From contig NZ_CP004353.1 in NCBI RefSeq assembly GCF_000550805.1, positions 248,001 to 312,000 on the forward strand: 64,000 nt of DNA, in the 5' to 3' direction. The notes under the pieces are model-generated. The model did not search any database. It was not told where the DNA came from and worked only from the letters and a program-made list of their open reading frames with translations. This document shows, one piece after another, positions 1,328-62,621 of the stretch. Every line of letters starts with the position of its first letter. Position 1 is the first letter of the stretch. Origin of the DNA: Corynebacterium vitaeruminis DSM 20294 (GTDB taxonomy: Bacteria > Actinomycetota > Actinomycetes > Mycobacteriales > Mycobacteriaceae). A program made the position numbers and the translations under genes.

Positions 1328-2566
1328 ATGGATACAACCTTCACCCTTGGCACCCAGCTGCACGACGGCCCGGGTCAGCACGGCCGCACGGGCACCATCC
1401 ACACCCCGCACGGCGACATCCAGACCCCGGCGTTCATCCCGGTGGGAACCAAGGCCACGGTGAAGACGCTCACCCCGGAGCAGGTCAAGGACACCGGCGC
1501 CCAGGCGGTGCTGTCCAACGCCTACCACCTCTACCTGCAGCCGGGTCCGGACATCGTCGATGAGGCTGGCGGCGTCGCCGCCTTCGAGCACTGGGACGGC
1601 CCCACCTACACCGACTCCGGCGGATTCCAGGTTATGAGCCTCGGCGTGGGGTTCAAGAAGGTGCTGGCCATGGACACGAAGGGGCTCCAGGACAGCGACA
1701 TCCGCGCGCAGAAGAAGGACCGCTTCGCGCAGGTCGACGAGGACGGCGTGGACTTCCGCTCGGTCATCGACGGCTCCAAGCACCGCTTCACACCCGAGGT
1801 GAGCATGCAGATCCAGCACCAGCTCGGCGCGGACATCATCTTCGCCTTCGACGAGTTGACCACGCTCGTGGACACCCGCCTCTACCAAGAGCAGTCGGTC
1901 GCGCGCACCCATCGCTGGGCCAAGCGCTGCCTCGACGAGCACGAGCGCCTCACCAACGAGCGCCCGGGCAAGCCGCTGCAGTCGCTGTGGGGCGTGGTGC
2001 AGGGGGCGCAGTACGAGGACCTGCGCCGCCAGGCCATCCGCGGGCTGCTGGACCTGTCCAAGGAGGCCGAGGACGCGGGTCGCCGCGGCTTCGGCGGATT
2101 CGGCATCGGCGGCGCCCTAGAGAAGGAGAACCTAGGCACGATCGTGGGCTGGGTCTGCGACGAGATCCCCGCCGACAAGCCCCGCCACCTGCTGGGCATC
2201 TCCGAGCCGGACGACCTGTTCACCGCGATCGAGGCGGGCGCGGACACCTTCGACTGCGTGGCGCCGACCCGCCTGGGCCGCCGCGGCGGCGTGTACACCC
2301 TCGACGGCCGCATGAACCTCCCGGCCGCGCGCTTCAAGCGCGACTTCACCCCGATCGACGCGGAGGTCGGCGGCTACGTCAACGAGCACTACACCCGCGC
2401 GTACATCCACCACCTGTTCAAGGCGAAGGAGTACCTGGGGCAGTCGCTGTGCACGATGCACAACCTCACGTTCATGATCCAGCTCGTCGACAACATCCGC
2501 GCCGCCATCAACGACGGCACCTACTGGGAGTTCAAGCAGGAGTTCCTGGGCAGGTACTACGCCTAG
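1328..2566 (+). CDS. tgt: tRNA-guanine (queuine) transglycosylase lacking the zinc cysteines
   Basis: This enzyme exchanges G34 of GUN-anticodon tRNAs for a queuosine base. The start at 1328 (412 aa) matches the family N-terminus; an in-frame upstream extension to 1304 looks non-coding. The catalytic pieces are present: TDSGGFQ with general base Asp96, AFDE with Asp175, and the nucleophile Asp309 in DTFDCVAPTR. The usual zinc site (Cys-x-Cys-x2-Cys plus His) is not: the Cys positions are Val347, Gly349 and Asn352, while His378 in the HN motif is kept. The substrate loop reads GFGIGG where bacterial enzymes usually have GLAVGE. A YhhQ-type transporter and gluQ lie 2.4-5 kb away, which supports a role in Q salvage. 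It is probably active on a base taken up from outside, but the changed loop leaves the preferred base (preQ1, preQ0 or queuine) open. Confidence 0.88.
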   Translation: MDTTFTLGTQLHDGPGQHGRTGTIHTPHGDIQTPAFIPVGTKATVKTLTPEQVKDTGAQAVLSNAYHLYLQPGPDIVDEAGGVAAFEHWDGPTYTDSGGFQVMSLGVGFKKVLAMDTKGLQDSDIRAQKKDRFAQVDEDGVDFRSVIDGSKHRFTPEVSMQIQHQLGADIIFAFDELTTLVDTRLYQEQSVARTHRWAKRCLDEHERLTNERPGKPLQSLWGVVQGAQYEDLRRQAIRGLLDLSKEAEDAGRRGFGGFGIGGALEKENLGTIVGWVCDEIPADKPRHLLGISEPDDLFTAIEAGADTFDCVAPTRLGRRGGVYTLDGRMNLPAARFKRDFTPIDAEVGGYVNEHYTRAYIHHLFKAKEYLGQSLCTMHNLTFMIQLVDNIRAAINDGTYWEFKQEFLGRYYA

Positions 2567-2588
2567 CTTGCTTATCGACGCCTACGGC
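2566..2588 (+). repeat. Dispersed GTCGAC-type element, copy 1
   Basis: GCTTATCGACGCCTACGGC follows the tgt stop codon directly and has the orientation of the gene. It belongs to the dispersed family described under the 26209-26260 palindrome. Confidence 0.7.
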
Positions 2589-2596
2589 GGGCATCC

Positions 2597-3307
2597 CTAG
2601 GGCCTGCCGGGAGCAAAGGGGATCCCGGCAAGAGTTGCGATTCCGCTAAGGAACAGGTCGACGCCCTCCTGGAACTGCAGGGCGTCGTCGTGGTGCTCGA
2701 ACTCGTCGACGATGGAGTGAAGAAAGGGGAATTCCTCCTCGTCGAAGGCGCGCCACCGGTCCGCGACGGTGCCCAGATCCTCCTGCTTCGAGGCGTCGTT
2801 GTTGGCCACCGGGGCGGCCGAATGCTGCTCGCTCATCTCCGCGCCGAAGCCGGTGACGAAGTTGATGAGCGAGGTCACGGCGTTGAAGCGCTGCCTCGGG
2901 GTGAGGTCGAGGGGGAGGAGCTGCTGGCCGAAGAGCTCGAAGAGCTTCATCGAGTTCGGCTGCATCGTCGTGTCCCGCATGAGGTAAGGACCCAGCCAGA
3001 AGTGGCGCTGCATGGCTGTGAAGAAGGCCATGGACAGCTCGCGGAGCGCGTCGATGGGGTCGTCGGGTAGATCGAGGGTGGCGATCGCCTCGCCCATGAC
3101 CTCGTTGGTGGCTAGGTTGATGAGGTCTTCCTTGCTGGCCACGTAGTGATACAGGCTGCCCACGCCCGTGTCGAGGCGGGAGGCGAGCGCACGCAGGGTG
3201 AGCGCGGCGACCCCGGATTCGTCGAGAAGCGCCACCGCATTGGATACGACGGTGTCGAGGGAAAGCGTGGGGCGGCGGCCTCGTCGGCGGGTGTTCTCGG
3301 TGCTCAT
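2597..3307 (-). CDS. TetR-family repressor of the adjacent DHA2 exporter
   Basis: 236 aa counting from the ATG at 3307; a 24-residue upstream extension is open but would run into the operators. The N-terminal helix-turn-helix (about residues 15-60; ALTLRALASRLDTGVGSLYHYVASKEDLI) is typical of TetR proteins. The C-terminal half resembles the TetR_C_11-like dimerisation and ligand domain. It is divergent from the exporter gene at 3402 and shares a 94-bp intergenic region containing three GAACNNNGTTC palindromes, which are the obvious operators. It most likely represses the pump, and possibly itself, until a ligand binds; the ligand is unknown. Confidence 0.85.
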   Translation of the reverse strand: MSTENTRRRGRRPTLSLDTVVSNAVALLDESGVAALTLRALASRLDTGVGSLYHYVASKEDLINLATNEVMGEAIATLDLPDDPIDALRELSMAFFTAMQRHFWLGPYLMRDTTMQPNSMKLFELFGQQLLPLDLTPRQRFNAVTSLINFVTGFGAEMSEQHSAAPVANNDASKQEDLGTVADRWRAFDEEEFPFLHSIVDEFEHHDDALQFQEGVDLFLSGIATLAGIPFAPGRP

Positions 3308-3328
3308 GGCCCCATTGTGCCACAAGGC

Positions 3329-3401: not shown

Positions 3402-4850
3402 ATGACTTCCACCCTCACCGCCGCTCCCGCGGCGAAGGAGACGCTGCGCGGGGCCTGGGTTCCGCTCGCGGCGCTCTGCCTCGCGTTCTTCGTCGAGATG
3501 GTTGACAACACGATCATGGTTATCGCGCTGCCGTCCATCACCCGTGACCTGGGCGCTTCCACCGCTCAGCTGCAGTGGGTCACCGGCGCCTATTCGCTGG
3601 TCTTCGGCTCTCTGCTGCTGACGGCGGGCTCCATCGCCGATCGCTTCGGCCGCCGCCGCACGCTCGTGTGGGCGCTCGGTGGCTTCGGTGCCGTCTCGGC
3701 GCTCGTGTGGTTTGTTCACACGCCGGGCGAGCTCATCGCAATGCGCGCGCTGCTCGGCGTCGCCGCCGCGGGCATGGCGCCCGTGACCATGAGCCTCGTG
3801 TTCCGGCTCTTCCAGGACACTGCCGTGCGCATGCGCGCGATCAACCTGATGGTCGTCATCGGCATGAGCTCCATGGCCATCGGCCCGCTGGCAGCGGGCC
3901 TCGCGCTGGAGCAGGTCAGCTGGCATTGGCTGCTTTTCGTCAACACCCCTATCGCCGCGCTCGCCGTCCTCGGCGTGATGAGGGGCGTCGGCGCCGACAC
4001 TGCCGATGAGCTTCACGACGCCCCCATCGACCTCCCCGCGGTCTTCTTCACCATCGCCGCGATCGGCCTGGGCTGCTACACCTTGACCAGCGGCACGGAC
4101 TTCGGCTGGCTCAGCGTGCGCACCCTGGCCTGCGCGATCGGCGCTGCGGTCGCCATTGCCGCTTTCGTCGTGCGCGAACGCACCGCTTCCCACCCCATGA
4201 TTGAGCTCTCGTTGCTTTCCCACCGCACGGTCCGCGGCGCCGCTCTCGCCCAGGCTGGCGCCTCCATCGCCCAGATGGCGATGATGCTGCTCATCATGAT
4301 GCACCTGCAGTTCGCCCTCGGCTGGTCCCCGCTCAAGGCGGGACTGGGCAACCTGCCCTTCCTGTTTACGATGCTCGCGGCCACCCCGCTCGCGGAGAAC
4401 CTCACCGCCCGCTTCGGTCACCGCATCACCTGCCTCATCTCCGGTGCGCTCATCGCCGTCGGCCTCGGCCTGCTCGGCTGGGGCGTGCCCCACGGCTTCG
4501 CCGCCATGATCCCCGGCATCGTCGTCATGACCGCCGGGCTGCGCGTCATCATGACCGTCTGCGCCGTGGCGCTCATCGAGGCAGCGCCCGAGGACCGAAC
4601 CACGCTCGCCACCGCGCTCAACGACGTGGTCCAGGAGGTCGGCGCCTCCCTCGGCACCGCCATCGAGGGCACCCTCATCGCGGTGCTGGTCACCAAGGTC
4701 CTACCCGCCGACGCCTGGCCCGCCGCGCTCCAGCTCAGCTTCTTCCACGGCGAGCGCGTCGTCTACATCGTGGTCGCCGTCATCGTGGCGCTCGTCGTGG
4801 GCTACGGTGCGGCTACGCTCACCGACTCCACGGCCACCGAGGAACACTAG
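3402..4850 (+). CDS. MFS drug exporter, DHA2 (EmrB/QacA) type
   Basis: 482 aa, very hydrophobic, with 12-14 predicted helices. The first helix contains the DHA2-type FVEMVDNTIMVIALPSI stretch. Motif A is GSIADRFGRRR (about residues 76-86), and the motif C region is GPLAAGLALEQVSWHW. Such proteins export drugs, biocides or metabolites in exchange for protons. A strong AAGGAG ribosome binding site ends 5 nt before the ATG. The gene is divergent from the TetR gene, and the pair sits as a cassette between two queuosine genes, so it may be an insertion into an older tgt-yhhQ neighbourhood. The substrate is unknown. Confidence 0.85.
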   Translation: MTSTLTAAPAAKETLRGAWVPLAALCLAFFVEMVDNTIMVIALPSITRDLGASTAQLQWVTGAYSLVFGSLLLTAGSIADRFGRRRTLVWALGGFGAVSALVWFVHTPGELIAMRALLGVAAAGMAPVTMSLVFRLFQDTAVRMRAINLMVVIGMSSMAIGPLAAGLALEQVSWHWLLFVNTPIAALAVLGVMRGVGADTADELHDAPIDLPAVFFTIAAIGLGCYTLTSGTDFGWLSVRTLACAIGAAVAIAAFVVRERTASHPMIELSLLSHRTVRGAALAQAGASIAQMAMMLLIMMHLQFALGWSPLKAGLGNLPFLFTMLAATPLAENLTARFGHRITCLISGALIAVGLGLLGWGVPHGFAAMIPGIVVMTAGLRVIMTVCAVALIEAAPEDRTTLATALNDVVQEVGASLGTAIEGTLIAVLVTKVLPADAWPAALQLSFFHGERVVYIVVAVIVALVVGYGAATLTDSTATEEH

Positions 4851-4867
4851 CCCCGCCAACGCGCAAG

Positions 4868-4951
4868 CCCGACTTCACTCACTAGACTTCGCCCCAAAAC
4901 ATACCCCTGACGGGTATCAAAATCGGGTGAAGTCTAGTGACTGAAGTCGGG
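4868..4951. repeat. Large nested inverted repeat between two convergent genes
   Basis: A 27-nt arm (4868-4894) is the inverse complement of 4925-4951 with only two mismatches. The 30-nt loop contains a second palindrome, ATACCC (4901-4906) and GGGTAT (4912-4917). It could end transcription of the exporter (+) and the transporter (-), although it has no T-run. Its length and near-perfect arms also fit a small mobile palindromic element. Confidence 0.75.
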
Positions 4952-4967
4952 TCTGCGATCGGGGCTG

Positions 4968-5630
4968 CTAGGCGTAGTAGTTCTCGCGCTTTTTCACCCA
5001 CGCGATGACCGTGTAGGTGATCGGCATGACGATGACCTCCACCAGGGTCTTCCAGATGAACCCCACCACGACGTAGTTGACGGTGTCGGAGACCGTCGTG
5101 ATCCCGATGACCGGGGCCGCGATGAGGCAGAAGATGAGGGTGTCGCCGAACTCGCCGACGATGGTGGAGCCGATGAGCCGCTGCCACAGCGACTTCTCGC
5201 CGGTGCGGCGCTTGATGAGCGTCAGCGTCCACGCGTTGAGCATCTGGCCCACGGCGTAGCCGCACAGCGAGGCGAAAACGATGCGCGGCACGAGTCCCAG
5301 GATGGCGCTGAACGCGTCCTGGTTCTCGTAGAAGTCGGCGGCGGGCAGCCAGATTGCCACGTAGAAGGCGACCACGGCCATGATCGTGGTGAAAAAGCCC
5401 GCCCAGATGGCGCGCCGGGCCGCCTTGAACCCGTAGCACTCGGCGAGGACGTCGCCGATGACGTAGGCGGCGGGGAAGAGGAAGAAGGCGCCGTCGGTGA
5501 CGAGCGGCCCGATCGTCACGCCCTTCGTCGAGGTGATATTCGAGATCATGAACACCGCCACGAAGAGCGAGAGCAGGATCGGGTACAGGCTGTCTTGGAC
5601 GCGGATAAAGCGCGGTTGAGTATTTGTCAC
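4968..5630 (-). CDS. Queuosine precursor transporter, YhhQ/VUT family
   Basis: 220 aa with about six membrane helices. The pattern matches the YhhQ family (COG1738): [17 protein letters not shown] near the N-terminus, [22 protein letters not shown] about residues 52-73, and [15 protein letters not shown] about residues 151-165. Members import preQ0, preQ1 or queuine. The start is GTG (5628-5630), 6 nt after a TAGGAT -10 on the same strand, with no Shine-Dalgarno. The divergent gluQ gene starts 23 bp away and tgt lies upstream, so the three genes together indicate salvage of a queuosine base rather than its synthesis; no queCDEF gene is in this window. Confidence 0.85.
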
Positions 5631-5636
5631 CCGTAA

Positions 5637-5646
5637 ATCCTACGAT
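5637..5646. promoter_or_regulatory. Overlapping back-to-back -10 boxes for the transporter and gluQ
   Basis: ATCCTACGAT reads TAGGAT on the minus strand (5642-5637, 6 nt before the transporter GTG) and TACGAT on the plus strand (5641-5646, 7 nt before the gluQ ATG). The two hexamers share TA. A possible -35 for gluQ is TTGAGT at 5616-5621. Confidence 0.55.
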
Positions 5647-5653
5647 GGATGCC

Positions 5654-6541
5654 ATGAGTTCCCCACGCGGCGCCGGCCGCTATGCCCCCAGCCCCTCCGG
5701 CGACCTGCACTTCGGCAACCTGCGCACGGCACTGCTCGCGTGGCTGTTCGCGCGCTCGACGGGGCGGGAATTTTACATCCGGGTCGAGGACGTCGACACG
5801 CAGCGCTCCTCGCAAGAGTCCGCCGCCCGCCAGCTGGAGGACCTCGCCGCGATCGGGCTCGACTGGGACGGGGAGGTGCTCTACCAGCACGATCGCTTCG
5901 CCGCCTACGAAGAGGCGCTTGCCACGCTGCCGGTCTACGAGTGCTACTGCTCCCGCCGCGACATCCAGGAGGCGTCCAGCGCCCCGCACGTCATCCCCGG
6001 GCACTACCCCGGAACGTGCCGTGAGCTTTCCGACGCTACGCGCGCGGCCAAACGGGCGGAGCTCTCAGCCCAGGGCCGGGTCCCCGCCCTGCGGCTCAAG
6101 GCCGAGGTCACAGAGTGGACCATCCACGACTTCTACGCCGGCGAGGTTGCTGGCGAGGTCGACGACATGATCCTGCGCCGCGGCGGGCAGCAGCCCGACT
6201 GGGCCTACAACCTCGCCGTCGTGGTCGACGACGCCTTCCAAGGCGTGGACCAGGTGGTCCGCGGCGATGACCTGTTGAGCTCCGCCGCGCGCCAGGGCTA
6301 CCTTGCCCACCTGCTGGGGGTTTCCACCCCGGAGTTCGTGCACGTCCCGCTGGTTCTGAACGAGCAGGGTGGGAGGTTGGCCAAGCGGGATGGGGCCGTC
6401 ACCCTTCGGGAGATGGGCGAGCCTTTGGCCGTCGTCAAGCAGCTTGCAACCTCGCTGGGAATGGAAGCGGGATCGGCGCGGGAGATGCTGGAGCGCTTCG
6501 ACCCGGCCGCGCTGAGCAGGAAGCCGTGGGTGTGGAAGTGA
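5654..6541 (+). CDS. gluQ: Glutamyl-queuosine tRNA(Asp) synthetase
   Basis: 295 aa, the short GluRS-like form without an anticodon-binding domain. It activates glutamate and attaches it to the queuosine at position 34 of tRNA-Asp. Visible motifs are the HIGH-like HFGN (residues 19-22), the KMSKS-like LAKRDGA near residue 240, and the GluQ zinc site Cys97-x-Cys99, Tyr118 and Cys122. The ATG at 5654 was chosen because it gives the family start [12 protein letters not shown] and sits 7 nt after a TACGAT -10. Upstream in-frame starts at 5624 and 5645 would overlap that promoter. Its presence implies that queuosine is really formed in this organism. The stop overlaps the next gene. Confidence 0.92.
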
Positions 6542-11121: not shown

Positions 11122-11151
11122 GGGAGTTAGGGAGGTCCTTGGGTTTGTGTT

Positions 11152-11186
11152 TTTTGCTTATCGACGCCCACCGCTTCGCGGTGGGG
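11152..11186 (+). repeat. Dispersed GTCGAC-type element, copy 2, with hairpin
   Basis: TTTTGCTTATCGACGCCC runs into a small perfect hairpin, CCCACCGC (11167-11174) and GCGGTGGG (11178-11185). It lies between the VTC gene and the lipoprotein gene, pointing against their transcription. Confidence 0.65.
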
Positions 11187-11203
11187 TACTACGTGGGAAA
11201 GGT

Positions 11204-12004: not shown

Positions 12005-12014
12005 GATGAATCTC

Positions 12015-12859: not shown

Positions 12860-12883
12860 GCCGTAGGCGTCGGCAAGCGAAAA
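12860..12883 (-). repeat. Dispersed GTCGAC-type element, copy 3
   Basis: On the minus strand, TTTTCGCTTGCCGACGCC begins 3 nt after the benE stop codon and has the gene's orientation. Confidence 0.65.
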
Positions 12884-12886
12884 CCG

Positions 12887-14321: not shown

Positions 14322-14363
14322 CTTGCTTTCCGACGCCAAGGCCACGGGCCTAACGCCGGAAAG
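14322..14363. repeat. Dispersed element, copy 4, forming a hairpin
   Basis: GCTTTCCGACGCCAAGGCC pairs with the inverse GCCTAACGCCGGAAAGC just downstream of the 14364 gene (minus strand). It is a diverged full palindrome and a likely terminator for that gene. Confidence 0.55.
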
Positions 14364-15263: not shown

Positions 15264-15285
15264 GCCGTAGGCGTCGGAAAGCGAA
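15264..15285 (-). repeat. Dispersed GTCGAC-type element, copy 5
   Basis: On the minus strand, TTCGCTTTCCGACGCCTACG lies downstream of the tRNA-Ser terminator in the direction of tRNA transcription. Confidence 0.65.
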
Positions 15286-21594: not shown

Positions 21595-21610
21595 GCTTTT
21601 CGACGCCAAG
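21595..21610 (+). repeat. Dispersed element, copy 7
   Basis: GCTTTTCGACGCCAAG starts right at the aspT stop codon and leads into the terminator stem. Confidence 0.6.
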
Positions 21611-26208: not shown

Positions 26209-26260
26209 TTTTGCTTGTCGACGCGTACCGCTGCGGAGCCGTAGGCGTCGGAAAGCAAAA
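26209..26260. repeat. Dispersed element, copy 8: complete 52-nt palindrome
   Basis: TTTTGCTTGTCGACGCGTAC at the left and its inverse, ending in GTCGGAAAGCAAAA, form a near-perfect hairpin with 24-nt arms and a 4-nt centre. It sits between convergent recR and the monooxygenase gene and probably terminates both. Most other copies are a single arm. Those I see start at 2566, 11152, 12860, 14322, 15264, 15532, 21595, 28294, 30355, 31587, 41203, 44858, 46670, 53232, 55452, 57153, 59245 and 62601. Confidence 0.8.
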
Positions 26261-28106: not shown

Positions 28107-28487
28107 GGTGCTCCTCCTCGAGTCGTTGGTCGGTGGGCCCGCGAAAGGGGGGCCGGGCGCGGCGCGCTAGCCGCCATCGTAGGTGCACGAACGTGATGCG
28201 CGACACAAGTGAAGCCTGCAAAGTTTCCCGCCGGCGGGTTTGCGCGGGGAGGGTGCAAGAAAATTGCAATGAAGCTAATGCGCCGTTCTTTGCTTTCGCT
28301 TGTCGACGCGTACCGCTGGCGGCGCCAAATCCCTCGAGGATGGCTCGACTTGGAAGAAAGGGGGCCGAAGCTCAAGCGCAATGGAACCTCGGCCACGAAA
28401 GGCGCGGCAACACGCCCGCCAAGGTATCAACGCATAGGAAGCCTCGCCCTAGGTAGGGGTCTAAGCGTTGCTGGGCGGATATTCTCT
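28107..28487. other. Gap without a gene
   Basis: This is the upstream region of the monooxygenase and the downstream region of the broken higA-immA gene. Apart from one dispersed element (28294-28316) I see no gene, RNA or clear hairpin. Confidence 0.5.
28294..28316 (+). repeat. Dispersed element, copy 9
   Basis: TCGCTTGTCGACGCGTACCG, nearly identical to the left arm of the 52-nt palindrome. Confidence 0.7.
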
Positions 28488-29824: not shown

Positions 29825-30738
29825 CTATTCGAAGTAGTCCTCATCTACCTCCACGATTGACACGGTTCGCTTGACTTGGACTCCCACGCCATAGCGGATC
29901 ATTAGACGAGTGAGTCGATCCCCGTCGATCAGCACAACCCGTGAGGCGACTGCGTTGGCATAATCCATTGCCCCAGTAGAGAACCTTGCCGTGGTCATGA
30001 ACACCCCACGGTCGGCCTGCGCACCCTGCAGCGCACCCACGAAAGCCTGAATCGCGGGACGGCGATGGCGATACTCGGCTCATATCGCTTGGCCTGGACG
30101 TAGATCCGCGAGAGCCCCAGCGCATCTTGGTCGATGATTCCGTCGATACCGCCGTTGTTGGACAGCTGCGTCCGAGTTGCCTTGCCCTGCGTGCCACCGT
30201 ATCCCATCGCAATCAGCAGATCGAGCACGGCTTGCTCGAAGAATTCTGGGTCGTTTCCGTGCAAGCGCGCCAGTAGGTCCGCGGCGACAGAGGCATCGTT
30301 CCTGGCCACACCAGTTTCGATCTGCTCCACCGGATCCAGCAGGCTTTCTTGCTCTTGCTTGTCGACGCCTACGGCACCCGTCTCAATCCCTATCCACGCT
30401 GTACCTTGCGAGCCAGAATCCTCAATTGCCTGTCGCATTTGCCTAGGATTTATGCCCTCGGGGTATCTAGCGAGCAGCTCGCGCCCGCGTTGTGTAATCC
30501 GGAAATGAGCACGCATCGGAGACTCAACGCATCCTGCTTTCTTCAGGTCAGAAAGCGCCCAACCATTTCGATTTACATACATCTGCTGGCCAGAAGGAAT
30601 GAGGACCGTCCGATCTTCATCTGTGATCCCCGAGATCTCCGCCGACTTCTCGATGAGCTGCTTGCGCCGCCACACTTCACCATCGCTTAACGCTGTCAGC
30701 AACGGAATTAGATATCCATCCCATGTACGGATTGGCAT
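29825..30738 (-). pseudogene. Mrr-type restriction endonuclease, split by one frameshift
   Basis: The ATG at 30738 (AAGGAG upstream) opens an Mrr N-terminal winged helix. The Mrr catalytic core follows, GIDGIIDQDALGLSRIYVQAKRYEPS, with the Asp and the QAK motif of the PD-(D/E)XK family. The frame then breaks near 30059-30066: restoring one base would give GRPAIQAFVGALQGAQADRGVF, which continues in the 29825-30040 frame to the normal C-terminus. Mrr enzymes cut modified DNA. A copy of the dispersed element is inserted in frame in the linker (GAVGVDKQEQE). In its present state the enzyme loses its last 70 or so residues. Confidence 0.82.
30355..30375 (+). repeat. Dispersed element, copy 10, inside mrr
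   Basis: TTGCTTGTCGACGCCTACGG lies antisense within the mrr linker and keeps the reading frame. Confidence 0.7.
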
Positions 30739-31602
30739 GAGAGTTCTCCTTGGAAGGCGAGCGCGCGGTGGAAAGGCTGGGGTCTTTTCAAGTTTTGCCC
30801 CTTTGAGTGAGTTTATGCTTCATCCTCGCGGCACGAAGCAAAAATGCGTTCCGCGACAAGGAGTGTCAAGCTTGATGAGTGTCTTTTGGCGGCGGTGGGG
30901 CGGAATCTGAATGGTCATGGACTGCGGAGACTTGGGGCGAACAGCCAATTAGTCGTCGAAATTCGAGATTATCAATGATGAAATTTGAAAGAGCCGCGGG
31001 CATTGAGCTTTCGGAGATTCACTTGGTTTACCCCTGTGAACAGGGATTTTTATCGCGAGTGGTCAGCGTTTCGCGAGAATATCAATCACATTCTTGACTC
31101 ATCATTCTTAATTCCGAAATATCATTGATCATTCGAAATTAAGAAAGATGTTGGAGTTACAGCGCGTCCAAATGCGTCATGATTCAGAGAACGGCGACTA
31201 CGCATCGAAGCCAGCGTCGTGTCAGTGGGGGAGTTTGGGGGCCGCGATATGACATTGGCTGCGTTCGACAGCTGTCAGTAGGTTTGCTGACGAGAGCACC
31301 CAGTCGCCCCTACTTCGTCGATGTAGGCCAAAGCAATTGGTGCGTCCCTGATACGTCAAAAGCCCGCTCATGCGGGCTTCTCCGAATGGTGCTCAAGGAA
31401 ACTATTTCATTCCCCGCTGCCGATAACGAAGTTAGCATGACCTCACACCTACGGCAATCGGGTGAAGGGGCGTATCACCCCGACGGCTCTGGAGTTAGGA
31501 AAGGAACCTGACGCAGCTCGACGAGACGATATTCAGAGCAATGCACGGCACTGAGAGTGGGAGTGCTGGGGAGTCGTGGGTGTAAACCGTAGGCGTCGAC
31601 AA
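30739..31602. other. Gap of about 860 bp without a recognisable gene
   Basis: Upstream of mrr, and more AT-rich than the surroundings (especially 30950-31160). Small open frames do not look like genes. A short hairpin, AGCCCGC and GCGGGCT at 31361-31378, is the only clear structure. It may be the eroded remainder of the defence patch. Confidence 0.5.
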
Positions 31603-31610
31603 GCGAAAAA
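31587..31610 (-). repeat. Dispersed element, copy 11
   Basis: On the minus strand TTTTTTCGCTTGTCGACGCC follows the gatD terminator stem; its T-run is the T-run of the terminator. Confidence 0.7.
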
Positions 31611-41161: not shown

Positions 41162-41607
41162 TAGTGCTCCTCCTCCGTGGCGTCGCCCATGCGCTTGTGC
41201 AGTTTCGCTTGTCGACGCCGAAGGTGCGCCTCGTGAGCCGCCAGCTCAGCCGTGGTCGTGGATCGGCCGAGCGTCTGCAGCGGCGAATCCTCGTCGGCGA
41301 CCTCCTCGGCGTCGGTGTCGTCGGAGCGACCCAGGCCGGAGAGGGTGAGCATGTAGGCGGTGGTTGCCATGGCGATGACGATGGCCGTGAGCACGAAGGC
41401 TTGGGGAACCGGGTCGGCCATGGTGGCGATGTCGTGCAGGTTCGGGAACGGCTCGTCGCGCCCGGTGGTGCCGCCGATGACCAGGATGATGAGGTTGGTG
41501 GCGTGGCTGATCAGCGTCATGCCGATGACGATGCGCAGCATGCCGCGCTGGAGGACGAGGTAGACGCCGCCCGCGGCGAGGATGGCGATTGTCAGTGCGA
41601 GAATCAC
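41161..41607 (-). CDS. mnhC: Mrp-type cation/proton antiporter subunit C with extended tail
   Basis: 148 aa from the GTG at 41607 (GGAGAG upstream), NuoK-like with three helices. RIVIGMTLISHATNLIIL is typical. The core ends near residue 100; the last 40-45 residues are an acidic then basic tail whose segment HLRRRQAKL is encoded by a copy of the dispersed element. Confidence 0.88.
   Translation of the reverse strand: MILALTIAILAAGGVYLVLQRGMLRIVIGMTLISHATNLIILVIGGTTGRDEPFPNLHDIATMADPVPQAFVLTAIVIAMATTAYMLTLSGLGRSDDTDAEEVADEDSPLQTLGRSTTTAELAAHEAHLRRRQAKLHKRMGDATEEEH
41203..41224 (+). repeat. Dispersed element, copy 12, inside mnhC
   Basis: TTTCGCTTGTCGACGCCGAA lies antisense within the mnhC tail codons. 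Confidence 0.6.
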
Positions 41608-41609: not shown

Positions 41610-44600
41610 CTAGCTCTCCTTTCCGCGGCGGTCGGTCGTGTCGGTCGCATCTGTCTGTCCTGTGCTGCCTCGCGAGTGCTTGGCCTGGTCTTCCGCGAGC
41701 CGTTTGCGTTCGCGCTCCGCCTCGCGGAGGATGACGCTGCGCTGCCCCTCGGGGGCGGTGCGCTCGTAGTCGCGGAAGTCGTCCAGGTGCCCCGGTCGGC
41801 GCTTGCGCGCCGCGGTCGCGCCGGCGAGCTCCTCCTCGACGGTCATCGGCGAGACGAGCGGGGAATCCTCGCGGGTGAAGTTCAGGTCCTTGTACTCCAT
41901 GCCGGGGCGCAGGTAGCCGCCGAGCGCGTTGATCGCCATGGACAGCATGCCGAGCACGGCCATGTAGACGCCCGCGTCGAAGATCATCGCCGAGGTCCAG
42001 TGCTGGCCCAGCCCCTCGCCGTGGATGGCGTAGAGGAAGGAACCGTGCGAAAGCCCCCAGAGGCCGTCGCCGATGGCGAAGAGCATGCCGGTGCCGGTGA
42101 GGTAGAGCGGCGTGCGCACGGGGAAGATTCGCTTGTCCCGCGGGAAGGATAGGTAGCTGAGCATGAGCGCGCCGCCCGCGATGAGCGCGGCGATGAAGCC
42201 GCCGCCCGGCTGCTGGTGCCCGCGCCAGAAGACGAGCAGGCTGAGCACGAGCAGGACCGGGATGAGGAAGCGCAGCAGTACCCGCAGCGGGATGGAGTTG
42301 ATGCGCGACTGCCCGAAGGGGGCCGGGTGTGCGCCCTCGGCGAAGGGGTAGCGCGGCATCGAGGTGACCACGGCGGCGATGACGATGGCGGACATGCCGA
42401 GCACCGACAGCTCGCCCATGGTATCGAAGGCACGGAACTCGACCAGGATCGTGTTGACCACGTTGTGGCCGGTGGAGATGTCGGGGCCGTTTTGCAGGTA
42501 CCACAGCGCCAGCTCGCCGCGGTCGCGGCGGCCGAGCAGAACGAAGACCATGAGGAAGGCGGAGATGCCCACGGCCAGCGCGATGAGGAGCGCGGAGCGG
42601 TTCGCCCGCTTGCGGGTCTTGTGGAAGTTGTCGGGCTGCTGGCGCACGATCATCATCATGATGACCACCGTCAGCGCCTCCACCACGAACTGGGTCAGCG
42701 CCACGTCCGGCGCGCCGAGCATGAGGATCTGCAAGGTCACGCCGATGCCCACCGCGCCGATGAGGACCACCGCGGTCAGGCGCTTGCGGGTGCGAACGAG
42801 GGCGATGACCGACAGCGCCACGATGGCCAGCGGCAGCAGGTCGTAGACGCGCTCGCCGCCCGGCCAGCGCCCGGCCAACGGCATGCCGTCGACCCCGCCG
42901 CGCGCGAGGCCCGCCACGGTGGTGGTGCCGGTGAGCAGGATGATGAGCGAGAACATGTATCCCAGGTGGCGGCCGGGGGCCAGGGTGTCGGCCATCGCGC
43001 CGAAGCGCTTGCCCAGTTTGGTGAGCATGAGCGTGAGCCCGCCCAGGAGCTCGTTTCCGGAGAAGGGTAGGAGCGAAGCGTCGGAAAGCAATGCCCAGAT
43101 CCGCTGGCGGTAAACGATGCCGACGACGCCGGCGATAAGTACCGCCGCGGAGATCAGAAGCGGGGTGGTCACGCCGTGCCACAGCGCGAGGTGCGCGTGC
43201 GGGTCGGCGGCGACGGACGAGACCGCGCCGGAGATCGGGTGATCGAGCATGCCCACGACGAACGCCAGCGGCAGGGCGATGAGACCAGGCAGCGCGGCGG
43301 GCAGCCACAGCATGACCGGGGCCTCCTTGACGCTGGTCATGTCGCGGTCGCCGTCGATGAAGCCGTCGCAGACGATGCGGGCGGAGTACGTGAAGGTGAA
43401 GAACGCGCCGATGCCTGCGGCCAGCAGCAGGACGCCGATGCCGAGACCGTCCATGGGTGCCTCGGTGAACGCGTCGAGCATGCCCTCCTTAGAGACGAAT
43501 CCCATGGTGGGCGGCACGGCGGCCATGGAGGCGGCGGCGATGACCACGGAGCCGAAGGTAAACGGCAGCTGGCGCCACGAGGAGCCGAGGCGGGCGGCGT
43601 CCCTCGTACCGGTCTGGTGGTCGACGACGCCGATGAGCATGAACAGCGAGGACTTAAACAGCGCGTGCGTGAGCGTGTGCACCAGCGCCGCAGCCAGCGC
43701 GAGCGGCGTGCCGACGCCGATGGTGGCAACGATCCAGCCCAGGTGCGAGACGGTCGAGTAGGCCGTGAGCTTCTTCAGGTCGGTCTTCTGGATGGCGAAC
43801 AGCCCCGCCATGACGGCGGTGGCCATGCCCACGCTGATGAGCAGGTAGTTCCAGACGTGGTCGCCGGAGAAGACGGCCGAGAACCGCATGAGAAGGTAGA
43901 TGCCCGCCTTGACCACGGCGGCGGCGTGCAGGAACGCCGAGACCGGGGTGGCGGCGGCCATTGCCTCCGGCAGCCAGAAGTGGAAGGGCAGCTGCGCGGA
44001 CTTCGTGAACGCCGAGACTGCCACCAGCACCGCCAGCGCGGAGGTAAGCCGCGGGTTCGCCGCCCAGAAGTCGGAGGCGAGGATCCCAGACAGGCTGGTG
44101 GTGCCCGCCTGGGTGGCGGCGATCGCCAGGGCCACCAGCAGCGTGAGCCCGCCGATGAAGGTGAGGATGAGCGTGCGCTGGGAGCCCATCTCGCCGCCCT
44201 TGCCGCCGGAGCGGGCGATGAGCATGAAGGAGGCGAGCGAGACCAGCTCCCAGCCGATGAACAGCACGAAGACGTCGTCGGCGAGCACGAGCAGCAGCAC
44301 GGCGGCCATGAACGCGGTCATGAGCGTGTAAAAGCTCATGTTTCCCTGGCGCCTGGGCAGGTAGGCGGCGGAGTAGACGAACACCACCGCGCCGATGCAC
44401 AGCGCAAGCAGGGCGAAGAAGGCGCTCAGCCCGTCGGCGCGCAGGGCGAGGGTAACGCCCACGCCGTCGTCGAGCAGATTGGGGATCCAGTCGTACTTCC
44501 ACTCGAGCGGCTGCCCGTCGAGGATGCCGGGCAGCTTCTGGAAGAGCAGGGTCGCGGCGGCGACGAACAGGGCGGCCAGCGGCCAGCCCGCGAGCCTGTC

Positions 44601-44672: not shown

Positions 44673-45231
44673 AGCTTATTCACACCCGTTTTTGTTAAGG
44701 AGGGGTCGTTGTCGCATTCGGTTCAACTTTCCCAACTTTAGCAGGCCGACCAGCGACGAAAATGCCCGTGGTGTGCCGTTTTGGGGTTTTGGCCTGTCTA
44801 TCGTTAGGTGTTTGCGCGCGGCGTGCGGCGCGTCGCGCGGCGTGGTTTTGTGTGGTCTTTTGCCCGCTTTTCGACGCGTACCGCGGCCGCCCATAGCCCC
44901 AAGGCCTTGGCTTTTGGTCGCTGCCCGCCTTGCGTCTTGTGCTCGAGAGTTTGGCGCGTCAGCGTCGGGCGGCGCCTGTGGAACCCCTGTAGAAACCCGC
45001 CGCGGCGGCGCCGAATCCTACCTGTGATGTGAGAAATAGCATGGGGCATTCGTTATCGGATTGATATGATAGGTGTCCCTCCGAAAGGAGTCGAAGGGGG
45101 CGACGGTTGGTTGTGGCGAGGGTTGGCCGGAAACCGCCAGCTGGAATGAGGGAGAAGCGCACGTGTGTGAAAAAAGTACATTTCTGATTCATTCCCCGGT
45201 GCGCCTGAAAACCTGTGTCGCGTGGGGGCGA
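44673..45231. other. Gap between the divergent mnh operon and the YhgE/Pip-like gene
   Basis: About 560 bp. It must hold the mnh promoter on the minus strand. I see one dispersed element (44858-44884) and no gene or RNA that I can name. Confidence 0.5.
44858..44884 (+). repeat. Dispersed element, copy 13
   Basis: Ends in CCGCTTTTCGACGCGTACCG; the spacing after TTTTG is one to two bases longer than in most copies. Confidence 0.6.
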
Positions 45232-45245: not shown

Positions 45246-46655
45246 ATGAGACTTCCCGCCCGTCGCATCACCGCCGCCGCCCTCCTCGCCCTGCCGCTGG
45301 TCGCAGGGGCCGCCTACGGGGCGGTATCCGGAACCGACATCGCCAGCTCCTGGAGCGCGGGCGCGGACACCTCGGCGCCCGTGGCCGCCACGAGCGACTC
45401 CTCGCTCGTCGACGCCCGCCGCGCGGCCGGCGAGGCGGGAACCCAGGCGGGCTTCCTCAAGCAGGGCACCACCGAGCTGGTCGACGGCACCGGCAAGCTC
45501 AGCGATGGCGCGAAGCAGCTGGCCGACGGCACGAAGTCCGCGGTCGACGGCGCCAGCCAGCTCTCCGACGGCATGACCCAGCTCCAGGCGGGCACCGGGC
45601 AGCTGGGCGCGGGCGCGACCCAGGTCGCCGACGGCGTGGGGCAGGCCGTCGACCAAGTGGTCGGGCTCGAGGCCGTCCGCGGGCAGATCCTCGGCGCCAT
45701 CGACCGCGTCCTCGGGGACCTGAAGGACACCACCGACCCCGACGCCGTCTCCTTCCGTGACCAGCTGCAGGGGCTGCGCGGTCAGGTGGACAGCTTCAAG
45801 CTCGACGAAAATGTCACCAACCAGCTCACCCAGCTGCGTGACGGCTCGCGGGAGATCGCCAACCAGCTCAACACCCCCGGCTACGGCTTCCACGACGGCA
45901 TCTACTCCGCGACCAAGGGTGCGAAGGACCTCTCCGCCGGGCTCAACCAGCTCAACGAGGGCGTCGACTCGGCGCTCAGCGGCGTCGACCAGCTCGACCA
46001 GGGCGCGCAGAAGCTCGACGGCATGGCCGACAACAACAAGGACAAGGTCGCCTCGGTCTCCCGCGCGCTGCCGATCGCCCAGGCGGGTACGGCCGCGGCG
46101 CAGGAGGAGGGCATCACCCGCACGCTCGCGCCGATGTACGCCTTCCTCATCGCCGCGGGCGTGCTGCTCGTCGCGGTCTTCGGTTCGCGCCGCTCGTTCG
46201 CCAACACCCTGCTCGCGGGCGTAGTCCTCTCCGTGCTCGCGGGCGGCCTCGTGGCGATGCTGGGCGCCGGTATGACGGCCACGGTCGCCATCGCCGCCGC
46301 GGGCATCGCCGGCCTGTTGTTCGCCGCCAGCGCCCTGTCCGCCGCGGCGATCCAGCGCATGGCGGGCCCCAAGGTCACCCCGGTGCTGCTCGCCGTGGGC
46401 GCGCTGGCGCAGATCGGCGTCGTCGGCTGGGTGTGGAACAAGGCGGCCACCGCGCAGGTGTCCACCGTGTGGCAGGTCGTCTCCGAGCTCATGCCGGTGC
46501 ACTACTCCACCGCGGCGATCAGCGCGTTTGCTAACGGCGGCCACCCCGAGGTGGCGTGGATGAGCACCGCCGTGCTCGCCGCGCTCACGCTCGCCGCCGC
46601 TGCCGCGTACAAGCTTGCCGACGCCAAGGCGGCACCTGCCGAGTCCGACGCCTAG
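45246..46655 (+). CDS. YhgE/Pip-type membrane protein with heptad repeats (short form)
   Basis: 469 aa from the ATG at 45246. An N-terminal helix (residues 8-28) is followed by an extracytoplasmic part rich in repeats of the form L-x-x-G-x-x-x (GTGKLSDGAKQLADGTKSAVDGASQL), about residues 80-290, that should form a long coiled rod. Five to six C-terminal helices follow, resembling the ABC-2-like end of YhgE/Pip proteins. Homologues such as phage infection protein are usually 700-900 aa with a larger outer domain. Related genes in mycolata sit near MmpL genes. The function is unknown. Confidence 0.78.
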   Translation: MRLPARRITAAALLALPLVAGAAYGAVSGTDIASSWSAGADTSAPVAATSDSSLVDARRAAGEAGTQAGFLKQGTTELVDGTGKLSDGAKQLADGTKSAVDGASQLSDGMTQLQAGTGQLGAGATQVADGVGQAVDQVVGLEAVRGQILGAIDRVLGDLKDTTDPDAVSFRDQLQGLRGQVDSFKLDENVTNQLTQLRDGSREIANQLNTPGYGFHDGIYSATKGAKDLSAGLNQLNEGVDSALSGVDQLDQGAQKLDGMADNNKDKVASVSRALPIAQAGTAAAQEEGITRTLAPMYAFLIAAGVLLVAVFGSRRSFANTLLAGVVLSVLAGGLVAMLGAGMTATVAIAAAGIAGLLFAASALSAAAIQRMAGPKVTPVLLAVGALAQIGVVGWVWNKAATAQVSTVWQVVSELMPVHYSTAAISAFANGGHPEVAWMSTAVLAALTLAAAAAYKLADAKAAPAESDA

Positions 46656-46669: not shown

Positions 46670-46695
46670 GCCGAAGGCGTCGGCAAGCGAAAAAC
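46670..46695 (-). repeat. Dispersed element, copy 14
   Basis: On the minus strand TTTTTCGCTTGCCGACGCCT follows the tRNA-Pro terminator repeats. Confidence 0.65.
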
Positions 46696-53231: not shown

Positions 53232-53251
53232 GCCGTGAGGCGTCGAAAAGC
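53232..53251 (-). repeat. Dispersed element, copy 15
   Basis: On the minus strand GCTTTTCGACGCCTCACGGC; its first T-run is the tail of the glxR terminator. Confidence 0.6.
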
Positions 53252-55451: not shown

Positions 55452-55471
55452 CACTTTCCGACGCCTACGGC
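55452..55471 (+). repeat. Dispersed element, copy 16
   Basis: ACTTTCCGACGCCTACGGC in the region just before the nth -10. The preceding TCGTCGCATT also precedes the 26209 palindrome. Confidence 0.65.
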
Positions 55472-55492: not shown

Positions 55493-56365
55493 ATGCCCGC
55501 ATCCAGCCCTACCGACGCCACCGCCATCACCGTGCCCGACACCCCGCCGATCGCGCGCGTGCGCGTCGGCAAGCACCGGGCACTGAAGGGGGAGACTGAA
55601 CTGGGCCGCACCCGGCGTGCCCGGCGCATCAACCGGGCACTCGCCGCGGGATACCCGGACGCGCACTGCGAGCTCGACTTCACCAACACCCTCGAGCTGG
55701 TCGTGGCCACCGTCCTGTCCGCGCAGTGCACCGATGTGCGCGTCAACCAGGTCACCCCGGCGCTGTTTGCCCGCTACCGCACGGCGGAGGACTACGCCAC
55801 CGCCGACGAGGCCGAGCTGCAGGAGATCATCCGCCCGACCGGCTTCTACAAGGCCAAGGCCGGGCACCTCATCGGCATGGGGCGGCTGCTCGTCACCGAC
55901 TACGGCGGCGAGGTGCCCAGCGCCCTCGAGGACTTAGTGCGGCTGCCCGGCGTGGGCCGAAAGACCGCCCACGTGGTGCGCGGCAACGCCTTCGGGATCC
56001 CGGGGCTCACGGTCGACACCCACTTCGGGCGGCTCGTGCGCAGGCTCAAGCTCACCGAGGAGGAGGATCCGGTGAAAGTCGAGCGCGTTCTGGCTAAGCT
56101 GATCGAAAAGAAAGAGTGGACGATGTTCTCCCACCGGATCATCTTCCACGGCCGGCGCGTGTGCCACGCGCGCAAGCCCGCCTGCGGCGCCTGCTTCCTC
56201 GCACCCGAGTGCCCGAGCTTCGGGCTGGGGCCGGTCGAGCCGGACCAGGCCGCGGAGCTGGTCACCGGGGACAACCGGGAGCACCTTCTGTGTCTGGCCG
56301 GGCTCGGTCAGCCGGGCGAAAACGAGGAAACCACGGGCGTGGAGAAGGAGCGTAACGATGCCTAA
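55493..56365 (+). CDS. nth: Endonuclease III
   Basis: 290 aa from the ATG at 55493; the frame further upstream passes through the adjacent small gene. The helix-hairpin-helix [12 protein letters not shown] carries the catalytic Lys, VDTHFGRL the catalytic Asp, and [17 protein letters not shown] fits the C-x6-C-x2-C-x5-C iron-sulfur pattern. It removes oxidised pyrimidines. The N-terminus is about 50 residues longer than in E. coli. The stop overlaps the next gene by 8 nt. Confidence 0.94.
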
Positions 56366-56959: not shown

Positions 56960-57724
56960 ATGAGCTATCCCTCGACCGACCTGCCCGGCGTGAACACCGC
57001 GTTGCGCCCCGAGGCCGCGCCCGGCTGGCTGCGCCCGGTGGTCGACGCCGTCCACCACGGGCACGCCTCCGCCGCGCTGGAGCGCGAGCTGCACGAGCGC
57101 TATAAGGAGGACGATCCCAGCAAGCGGGCCGCCGTGCTCATGCTGCTGGCCAGCCGTGAGGCGTCGACAAGCGACGCCGAAACCCTGCCTGGCGACGCCT
57201 CCGTGCTGCTCACGCACCGCTCGCCGCGACTGCGCAGCCACTCGGGCCAGATCGCGTTCCCCGGCGGCCGCGTCGACCCCGGCGACATCGACATCGTGGA
57301 CTGCGCCCTGCGCGAGGCGTGGGAGGAGACGGGGCTCGATCGCCGCAGCGTCACCCCGCTCGCCGCGCTCGACGAGGTGCAGATCCGGCCCACCGGCAAC
57401 CCCGTGCACCCGATCGTGGCCCACTGGGATAACGAGGTGCCAGTCGGCGTCATCGATCCGATGGAGGCCGACGAGGTGTTCCTCGCCCCGCTCTCCGAGC
57501 TCATCCTGCCGGATAACCGCATCACGGTCTCGCGCGGCCTGTGGACGGGCCCGGCGTTCCTGATCAACGACTACCTCGTGTGGGGCTTTACCGGCGGGCT
57601 GTTGTCGGTCATGATCCAGGAGGCCGGCTGGGAGCAACCCTGGGACCGAGGCCACGTCGTGCCGCTGGAGGAGGCCCTCGCGACCACCCGCAACAACGAG
57701 CGCTGGGGGCGCGCGCTGCCGTAA
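56960..57724 (+). CDS. nudL: NUDIX hydrolase, CoA pyrophosphatase-like
   Basis: 254 aa from the ATG at 56960, 10 nt after AAGGAG. A GTG at 56951 overlaps the upstream stop but is too close to that site. The NudL signature LRSHSGQIAFPGGRVDPGD is followed by the Nudix box REAWEETG. The expected reaction is cleavage of CoA or related dinucleotides. The segment REASTSDAE (about residues 65-73) comes from an inserted copy of the dispersed element in a loop before the fold. Counterpart of Rv3672c. Confidence 0.85.
   Translation: MSYPSTDLPGVNTALRPEAAPGWLRPVVDAVHHGHASAALERELHERYKEDDPSKRAAVLMLLASREASTSDAETLPGDASVLLTHRSPRLRSHSGQIAFPGGRVDPGDIDIVDCALREAWEETGLDRRSVTPLAALDEVQIRPTGNPVHPIVAHWDNEVPVGVIDPMEADEVFLAPLSELILPDNRITVSRGLWTGPAFLINDYLVWGFTGGLLSVMIQEAGWEQPWDRGHVVPLEEALATTRNNERWGRALP
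57153..57174 (-). repeat. Dispersed element, copy 17, inside nudL
   Basis: On the minus strand TCGCTTGTCGACGCCTCACG, in frame within a loop of the protein. Confidence 0.6.
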
Positions 57725-59248: not shown

Positions 59249-59267
59249 GCGTATCGACGCCTACGGC
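59245..59267 (+). repeat. Dispersed element, copy 18
   Basis: CGCGTATCGACGCCTACGGC directly after the marP terminator stem, same orientation. Confidence 0.7.
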
Positions 59268-61008: not shown

Positions 61009-61677
61009 ATGGATTCGCTCTCGCAGCTCGCCGCCGTCCCCGCCCTCGCCTCGCTCATCGAGGAGGCCACGGGCGCCATCAACGCGGTGCATCGCAGGCC
61101 GGTCAACCTGCGCAAGGTCGAGCTGACCAGCTCCGAGTCCACGCTGCGCGGCGCGAGGGCGAACGTGGATCTGTACCGCGCCGGGGTCACGGAGGAGGAG
61201 TCGATCTCCGCCTACAGCGTGCTCGCGCCGGGCTCGGTCGACGCCACCGTGCGGACCTTCGTGCGAGCCCCGCTGCAGGTGCTGGCCCGCATCGACGCCC
61301 TAGCTGGCGGCCCCGGCCGCCCAGAGCAAGGTGCCGATCGGCTTTCCGCGCTGGCCGGGCTCGTCGCTACCACCAAGGGCGGGGCGCTTCTGCCCGCGAT
61401 CCTCCACGGGGAGCTCCTCCGCGGCGGTTACTTCGGCAGGCGCAGCGGCACGGTCGCCAGGGTCGCAGCGCGCGTGAGCGCCATCGGCACCGGCTTCGAC
61501 CCGCGGGGCCTGACCGTTCCGGAGACCTACCTGCGCCGGCACCGCGAGGACTACCGGCGACTCGCGGAGCGCTTCGGTTCGGATGAGGCGAGCATCGAGG
61601 AGTTCTTAGCCTTCCACGTGCGCGCCTTCATCGCTGGGGCCACCGAAGCCGAGGGCATCGCCAGCGCAGCGTCGTAA
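61009..61677 (+). CDS. Conserved actinobacterial protein, Rv3662c-like
   Basis: 222 aa from the ATG at 61009; the frame upstream to 60901 would include the promoter. An all-helical, Ala- and Arg-rich protein with VNLRKVELTSSESTLRGARANVDLYRAG and LARIDALAGG as the most distinctive parts. No signal peptide or membrane helix, and no known catalytic motif. Its place next to the HAD gene and ssd matches Rv3662c of M. tuberculosis. Confidence 0.72.
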   Translation: MDSLSQLAAVPALASLIEEATGAINAVHRRPVNLRKVELTSSESTLRGARANVDLYRAGVTEEESISAYSVLAPGSVDATVRTFVRAPLQVLARIDALAGGPGRPEQGADRLSALAGLVATTKGGALLPAILHGELLRGGYFGRRSGTVARVAARVSAIGTGFDPRGLTVPETYLRRHREDYRRLAERFGSDEASIEEFLAFHVRAFIAGATEAEGIASAAS

Positions 61678-61695
61678 AGCGAAAAGCTAAAAAGC

Positions 61696-62556
61696 TTAGG
61701 TGGGGGACTCGTCCTCGCGGTACTTCTTCGCCAGCCAAATGCCACCCGCGGCGGCCGCAGCGAGCGCCGCGACGACGCCGGTGGTCTTGCCCAGCTCCTT
61801 GCCCGTGGGCAGCTGGAAAAGCGGCACGGGGTTGCGGAAGGAGTGGATCTCCCAGCCCTTGTCCGTGGCCACCTTGCGCAACGCGCGGTCGGGGTTGACG
61901 GCGTTGGGGTGGCCGACCGCCTCGAGCATGGGCAGGTCAACGGCGGAATCGGAGTAGGCGTAGCTTCGCGAGAGGTCGTAGCCGCGGCGGGCGGTGAGGT
62001 CCATGATCGCCTGCGCCTTGGCCGCGCCCTTGCAGTAGAAGGTGATCTCGCCGGTGAACTTGCCGTCTTCCTTGGCCAGCTCCGTGGACACGACGTGCTC
62101 GACGCCGAGCTCGCGCGCGATGGGCTCGACCAGCTCGCGCGCGGAGGCGGAGATGATGACCACGTCGTGGCCTGCGGCGATGTGCTGATCGATGAGAGCG
62201 CGGGCCTCGGAATAGATGGTGGGTGTGACCACCTGCTGCATCGTCTCCTCGGCGATGGCCTTGACCTGCTCGACGTCCCAGCCCGTGACCATCTGCGTGA
62301 GCTGGTCGCGGGTTGCGTCCATTTGCCCGTCGGAGTGCCCGGCGAACATGTAGGTTGCCTTGGCCATGGACATCTGCAGCGCCTCCACGGGCGTGATGAG
62401 CCCGGAGTTCAAGAACTCCTTGCCGTAGGCGAACGCCGAGGAGGTAGCGATGATGGTCTTGTCCAGATCGAAGAACGCGGCCACGCGATGAGGCGCGAGG
62501 ACCACGTCGGTGCCGGGTCGTCGCGCCAGGGCGCCGTGTTCGTTCGAATCAACCAT
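61696..62556 (-). CDS. HAD-IB hydrolase (SerB-like) with C-terminal membrane helix
   Basis: 286 aa. Nucleophile motif FFDLDKTII (about residues 28-36), motif II VIISAS, and motif IV YAYSDSAVDLPML (about 219-231). A C-terminal helix, TTGVVAALAAAAAGGIWLA, probably tethers it to the membrane. The group includes phosphoserine phosphatase-like and lysophospholipid phosphatases. Counterpart of Rv3661, divergent from ssd with the 6C RNA between them. Confidence 0.88.
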   Translation of the reverse strand: MVDSNEHGALARRPGTDVVLAPHRVAAFFDLDKTIIATSSAFAYGKEFLNSGLITPVEALQMSMAKATYMFAGHSDGQMDATRDQLTQMVTGWDVEQVKAIAEETMQQVVTPTIYSEARALIDQHIAAGHDVVIISASARELVEPIARELGVEHVVSTELAKEDGKFTGEITFYCKGAAKAQAIMDLTARRGYDLSRSYAYSDSAVDLPMLEAVGHPNAVNPDRALRKVATDKGWEIHSFRNPVPLFQLPTGKELGKTTGVVAALAAAAAGGIWLAKKYREDESPT

Positions 62557-62600
62557 TGCCCTTCGAGTCTAGTCGCAAATGGGGTCGCGGTGAATGATGC

Positions 62601-62621
62601 ATTTTGCTTGTAGACGATTAC
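62601..62621 (+). repeat. Dispersed element, copy 19, diverged
   Basis: TTTTGCTTGTAGACGATTAC; the CGAC core is changed to AGAC. Confidence 0.45.

Follow-up and report, generated by a model that had tools for sequence, protein, structure and literature searches.

A clade-spelled, many-copy word in Corynebacterium genomes that may work like a DNA uptake sequence

The window analysed here, a stretch of 64,000 nucleotides, covers positions 248001-312000 of the one-contig genome (2,931,780 bases) of Corynebacterium vitaeruminis DSM 20294 (G000), in which a short word recurs behind, between and within genes. The word, GCTT-N2-CGACG(C), is bipartite and non-palindromic, and in C. vitaeruminis it has a lead rich in pyrimidines and a tail that is a feature of the lineage. 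The pattern GCTTNNCGACGC matches the window 23 times, 13 times on the plus and 10 times on the minus strand, whereas 100 dinucleotide shuffles gave 0.42 on average and never more than 3; according to a home-made gene finder, 15 of the 23 copies are intergenic and 8 genic. An earlier note on this DNA had described a dispersed element, present in both orientations and far above chance, and the counts bear it out; the exact string in the title of that note occurs once in the window, and the family is degenerate. We give a rough probability of 0.58 to the reading that the word works like a DNA uptake sequence of the self-recognition type.

The copies are pattern matches, with gene context from the gene finder. 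The first follows directly on the stop codon of tgt (PF01702; 2570..2581, +), within the pattern set tested by shuffling, and another lies directly behind the benE stop (12867..12878, -). Further copies stand behind tRNA-Ser (15271..15282, -), behind tRNA-Pro (46677..46688, -), behind the gene of a cNMP/Crp-type regulator, glxR (53240..53251, -), and after a terminator-like stem 3' of the GATase_3 gene that adjoins the MurT gene and corresponds to gatD (31593..31604, -), while the copy at 21595..21606 (+) comes directly after a stop codon and runs into a terminator-like stem. Copies had been claimed behind nine named genes; in the seven that were checked (tgt, benE, gatD, glxR, marP, tRNA-Ser and tRNA-Pro) there is a copy behind each, in the orientation of the gene, with the qualification that the one behind marP (59249..59267, +) is degenerate, with GCGT for GCTT. 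Another degenerate copy, with ACTT for GCTT, lies at 55453..55471 (+). Two words face each other as the left (26213..26224, +) and right (26245..26256, -) arms of an inverted pair, and the copy behind tRNA-Pro is the inverted partner of one placed within a gene near its 3' end (46613..46624, +). Intergenic copies were also found at 11156..11167 (+), 14325..14336 (+), 28298..28309 (+) and 44866..44877 (+), and one between convergent genes at 61669..61680 (-); the copy at 30357..30368 (+) has the spelling of the earlier title. Within genes, the word is found at 4010..4021 (+), 6025..6036 (+), 43078..43089 (-) and, in an Ssd/CpaE-like gene, 63576..63587 (+), and it is antisense at 41207..41218 (+), 57161..57172 (-) and, in the endonuclease III gene nth, 55563..55574 (-). 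Comparison with G222, the closest relative among the 242 Corynebacterium genomes of our genus sample (tgt 90% identical), showed the word there too at the benE site, at 11156 and 14325, and, by alignment, at the genic site 6025.

Across the whole C. vitaeruminis genome, GCTTNNCGACGCNTNCNGC has 219 exact matches and the reversed pattern none. In a sample of 61 pieces with 1.254 Mb in total, where up to five of 60 stretches had been placed near known matches, there are 375 copies, i.e., one per 3.3 kb, and when the five pieces are left out, 336 copies in 1.164 Mb (one per 3.5 kb), close to the one per 3.4 kb that had been estimated from the window. When copies near piece ends are excluded, 200 are intergenic and 167 genic. 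The over-representation holds in both compartments: 187 copies in 217 kb of intergenic DNA against 0.9 expected from a Markov-2 model, and, for the 12-base form, 173 copies in 982 kb of coding sequence against about 17 (16.6-17.5) under a synonymous-codon shuffle. Coding copies occur on both strands and exceed the null in all frames, with 109 copies against 4.5 in sense frame 2, which encodes L-x-D-A. Between genes, a predicted 3' gene end is no more than 40 nt away for 45% of 185 copies, compared with 10% of random intergenic positions. Neither a Markov-level count nor an absence of 3'-end enrichment was therefore seen, and the association with gene ends stands for this sample; the orientation along the gene, which was also part of the claim, is not fixed, as 48 copies point in the same direction as the adjoining gene and 37 in the opposite one (p 0.28), a further 21 being placed between two 3' ends. 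Neighbouring words at most 100 nt apart are more frequent than expected (21 against 11); 13 of these pairs are convergent, 6 divergent and 2 in the same direction. In the species G060, G175 and G006 its density is higher within genes than in intergenic DNA, which argues that the 3'-end preference of C. vitaeruminis is not general.

The core of the word is genus-wide and, within our sample, genus-specific. TTYGCTTNNCGACGC has at least one copy in 191 of the 242 Corynebacterium genomes, with a maximum of 267 and 0-2 copies of the reversed control, while in a selection of 185 genomes from 30 other genera of the family the CGACGC form occurs 0-3 times and its reversed control 0-4 times. The idea of a species-specific repeat was abandoned, since only the 19-base form is peculiar to C. 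vitaeruminis (194 copies, with 0-5 in each of 150 other genomes) and the core is not, so that the presence across species that had been in question holds for the core and fails for the long form. In rankings of over-represented 10-mers the word comes first in G000, G222, G060 and G175 and, as GCTTGCCGAT, first in G006; in stretches placed at known matches, where over-representation is inflated, it heads the list in G026 and G100 and takes third place in G168. G222, G060, G175, G006 and the wordless G153 were sampled contiguously or on an even grid.

At least two mutually exclusive, clade-specific spellings exist, CGACG and CGATG. G006 has no copy of the CGACG form and has its own spelling, GCTTNNCGATGCC, which reaches 136-578 copies in 17 genomes of the genus; these have 0-3 CGACG words, counted with a stricter TTY lead. 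None of the 242 genomes has the two spellings together when 20 and 60 or more copies are required of them. The two free bases also differ, with GT or TC preferred in G000, GC or TC in G222, TT in G026 and AT in G060 and G175. Against the synonymous-codon null, coding counts of the 11-base form are 144/10.4 (observed/expected) in G222, 65/6.6 in G060, 106/10.2 in G175 and 54/2.1 in G026, the last inflated by the placement of its stretches at known matches, and 59/4.9 for the CGATG spelling in G006. The other spelling is near the null in all six species (G000 16/10.2, G222 10/8.1, G060 3/5.0, G175 5/4.5, G026 3/2.5, G006 6/3.4), and G153 gave 6/2.9 and 3/2.0 for the two spellings.

Orthologous sites were compared between C. 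vitaeruminis and G222. For coding sites, with the core GCTTNNCGACG, 67 sites of C. vitaeruminis and, in reverse, 133 of G222 were taken. Among the 48 C. vitaeruminis sites that could be aligned, the word is intact in G222 at 24, altered by substitutions with an ungapped core at 22 and interrupted by a core gap at 2; among the 62 aligned G222 sites these numbers are 23, 36 and 3. The non-shared coding sites thus show substitution without a core gap in 22/24 and 36/39 cases, which speaks against the miniature mobile palindrome that had been proposed earlier, as far as coding copies are concerned; a gap within 25 nt is present in 6/24 and 13/39 and absent in 18/24 and 26/39. From the 24 of 48 shared sites we make no claim of conservation, because blocks more than 92% identical and the shorter core are included. 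Between genes, 85 of 127 intervals could be paired, with the word in both species in 13, only in C. vitaeruminis in 16, only in G222 in 5 and in neither in 51. As a separate observation, the window blocks 4849-7086 and 9275-16205 are 92-96% identical to G222, with flanks at 73-87%, which suggests recent interspecies exchange.

The word is missing from three mobile stretches of the chromosome. Only 3 of 59 stretches of 20 kb in C. vitaeruminis lack it, against a mean of 5.9 words per stretch, and four others have 1 or 2 words each. The first word-free stretch (L129) holds a capsid gene of a prophage (at 200 kb) nearly identical to phage Poushou, whose recorded host is C. vitaeruminis and with which 196 of 198 sampled 200-base pieces are common; the second (L138) carries a TraG/TraD-type coupling protein, and the third (L139) genes for a D5-type primase, DUF2800 and a family A DNA polymerase. 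Phage Poushou itself has one GCTTNNCGACG in 40 kb, while 19.7 would be present at the chromosome average, and in the sequences of two Corynebacterium plasmids the counts are 0 and 1.

At 79% of 368 sites in C. vitaeruminis the word extends into a short stem, GCC-loop-GGC, a share that falls to 36% when the downstream letters are shuffled, and loops and stems vary with some covariation (C at Y16 in 11/19 sites with G at X12 and in 73/286 with C at X12, p 0.006). G222 has the tail stem in 64% of its sites (36% shuffled), in G060 and G026 it is weak, and in G168, G100, G006 and G175, i.e., four of the six species tested besides these two, it is at shuffle level. The G060 hairpin (0.36 against 0.17 shuffled) is not above that of CGACGC sites without GCTT (0.42). 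The hairpin was therefore dropped as the essence of the word, with four species at shuffle level; it is a lineage feature, mainly of C. vitaeruminis and its nearest relative G222.

We liken the word to DNA uptake sequences (DUS) because it is non-palindromic, occurs on both strands, in and between genes, changes by substitution in genes, has clade-specific spellings, is limited to one genus within our sample and is missing from three mobile stretches; it is likened to a DUS and not filed as one. We infer an action of the word in uptake, a receptor and a molecular drive. DNA bearing the word would be preferred by a receptor on the cell surface, part of a machine for natural transformation that is probably a Tad/Flp pilus with ComEA/ComEC. 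Repeated uptake and recombination would convert near-words to words on both strands wherever the sequence tolerates it, genes included, and would let individual sites appear and vanish. The spelling would drift along with the receptor, giving dialects, and DNA of phages and plasmids, arriving by another route, would gain no word. The earlier suggestion of a chromosomal mark fits such a reading.

The DUS of Neisseriaceae likewise lie on both strands and in genes. They are short words of many copies with dialects that follow phylogeny, as described in PMC3630211, and their density is drastically reduced in genomic islands according to PMC7371117, which also gives one DUS per 400-1100 bp against approx. 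one per 3.3 kb for the word in C. vitaeruminis. Their sequence differs, and the Corynebacterium word is bipartite with N2 and belongs to a Gram-positive genus. The uptake signal sequence (USS) of Pasteurellaceae carries a T-rich stretch, and in the seven CGACG-spelling genomes examined the core also has a T-rich lead; the word differs from the USS in sequence, and the CGATG species G006 did not show such a lead. C. vitaeruminis has inverted pairs close to gene ends that resemble those of H. influenzae, where inverted word pairs form terminators, as stated in a section of PMC5217627. In the open-access literature we found, among the matches listed, no description of this word or of uptake words in Corynebacterium; the accessible part of a spaced-motif survey of many genomes gives only clustered regularly interspaced short palindromic repeat (CRISPR) motifs for this genus (PMC5217627), and the word is not among the C. 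diphtheriae stem-loop family numbers listed in the accessible part of PMC2267715.

As for the machinery, ComEC is present in 241 of the 242 genomes, so that it says little on a link to uptake and was dropped as a phyletic marker. The last gene of the window is Ssd/CpaE-like (TIGR03815), a gene that borders the tad locus in actinobacteria. With T2SSF and T2SSE matches as a proxy for the Tad pilus ("Tad-weak" meaning weak for both) and at least 5 CGACG or at least 30 CGATG words defining a worded genome, 31 of 66 wordless genomes are Tad-weak, compared with 6 of 176 worded ones. In an excerpt of PMC6667448 on the actinobacterium Micrococcus luteus, tadA1, tadA2 and comEA are termed competence-related genes.

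Several observations weigh against the uptake reading. The Tad-pilus link is confounded by phylogeny: in a tgt tree of 25 genomes, rooted at midpoint, the eight sampled Tad-weak wordless genomes group together, pointing to few events, so that the Fisher value of 4e-15 is not to be taken at face value. There are also 26 wordless genomes with strong Tad hits, one of which (G200), examined over 40 kb as the possible bearer of a further dialect, yielded a weak CGACGCC signal but no clear word, and six worded genomes that are Tad-weak; two of the latter (G084, G008) are one-contig genomes 98-99% complete, three (G215, G119, G075) are 53-90% complete and G021 is a draft of approx. 80 contigs. No report of natural transformation in Corynebacterium was found by title among the matches listed in the open-access literature. 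Phage Juicebox, of another species, carries five GCTTNNCGACG, and the hairpin tail of C. vitaeruminis and G222 fits nowhere in the uptake model. The specificity is sharp: most one-mismatch forms are at or below the null in C. vitaeruminis coding sequence, the exceptions being the last base and a few more, which are raised, unlike in Haemophilus and Neisseria (H. influenzae, N. gonorrhoeae), where the available part of PMC1939737 reports a graded over-representation of such forms. Identity at word sites (34 alignments below 92%) is not clearly above controls, three of which have only 5-11 alignments while the half-word control has 333. Finally, when the word is present in one of the two species and absent from the other, the worded species has the longer intergenic interval in 10/16 (C. 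vitaeruminis) and 4/5 (G222) cases, compared with 14 of 51 wordless intervals in which C. vitaeruminis is longer, and this could mean insertion; change by substitution is accordingly established for genes only, with insertion possible between genes.

The sharp specificity would favor a highly iterated word with a function other than uptake, such as the site of a nucleoid protein or a word linked to modification, and the dialects could then track a DNA-binding protein. HIP1 of cyanobacteria, a palindromic octamer, is likewise highly iterated in genes, while the Corynebacterium word is non-palindromic and has two spellings. As the sites are not clearly conserved above the (small) controls, and as C. 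vitaeruminis shows inverted pairs, a gene-end preference and three mobile stretches without the word, we hold this explanation to be unlikely. We find it unlikely too, and put it just behind, that the word is a Chi-like recombination hotspot, read by AdnAB or a RecBCD-type end-processing nuclease, which protects self DNA and directs recombination. Such a word would likewise be over-represented in genes chromosome-wide and scarce in phages. Known Chi words typically show strand bias, and they do not resemble a word of bipartite 4-N2-5 build that forms inverted pairs at the ends of genes; in C. vitaeruminis the orientation to replication, which had been named for checking, shows no bias, with 192/183 copies when the terminus is put at half length and 188/187 and 190/185 at other positions (three in all), the last split with the terminus at 1.725 Mb, near the peak of cumulated GC skew.

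A selfish dispersed repeat, either a repetitive extragenic palindromic (REP) element with its REP-associated tyrosine transposase (RAYT) or a miniature inverted-repeat transposable element inserting after terminators, would explain the mini-hairpin tail of C. vitaeruminis with its partial covariation, the 3'-end enrichment, the inverted pairs and the longer worded intervals (10/16, 4/5), and intergenic copies with hairpin tails and inverted pairs are indeed shared with REP elements and bacterial interspersed mosaic elements. We nevertheless regard it as very unlikely, since genic sites change by substitution without a core gap, coding enrichment extends to all frames, two exclusive spellings divide the genus and the hairpin falls to shuffle level in G168, G100, G006 and G175. 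The RAYT/REP form was rejected: the Y1 (RAYT-type) transposase (Y1_Tnp, PF01797) was not found in C. vitaeruminis, while it has matches in 5 of 14 control genomes. The terminator tail or RNA processing site suggested earlier, an RNA-level signal favored by the share of intergenic copies with a 3' end no more than 40 nt away (45%, and 10% at random), is hardly credible given the lack of significant orientation bias (48 same, 37 opposite), the 173 copies in predicted coding sequence, antisense ones included, and the three species (G060, G175, G006) in which the word is denser in genes.

Other features were recorded along the way. In the window, positions 62819-62891 are the 6C RNA and 20127-20223 the bacterial small signal recognition particle RNA, and tandem repeats with a register of approx. 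66 nt occupy 9598-10834, within the open reading frame 9238-11121; at gathering scores, no Rfam family was found at the word. In G100 (L225, L226) there is a second over-represented palindromic sequence, AATTGCCCTAGGGCAATT-like, with 17 copies of CCTAGGGCAA against 0.1 expected in 40 kb. In 100 kb of G168 (L220-L224) the word CTCGACCTTT occurs 13 times where 0.2 would be expected, and AAAGAATTCA has 10 against 0.1 in 200 kb of G060 (L251-L260). A longer repeat of approx. 110 nt around GCTTGCCGACGCAACACCT was seen in three places (L132, L176, L178).

If the uptake reading is right, the word would open natural transformation to study at the level of sequence in a genus that includes commensals, pathogens and strains used in industry, and it would predict which DNA is accepted by each species and which species exchange genes. 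The spread of sequence-specific uptake, and its receptor in bacteria with a Tad pilus, would become directly testable. The chances seem to us about even that this amounts to a genus-wide system of uptake-word dialects in a Gram-positive, mycolate-type actinobacterium, with a Tad/Flp competence pilus reading the word and a resulting barrier to interspecies recombination. To our knowledge, no DUS has been described beyond Neisseriaceae and Pasteurellaceae, so that this one would be the first. Natural transformability would then extend, now or in the recent past, to most of the genus. Even if its function is another one, few 10-mers are as strongly over-represented as the word in the worded genomes that were examined.

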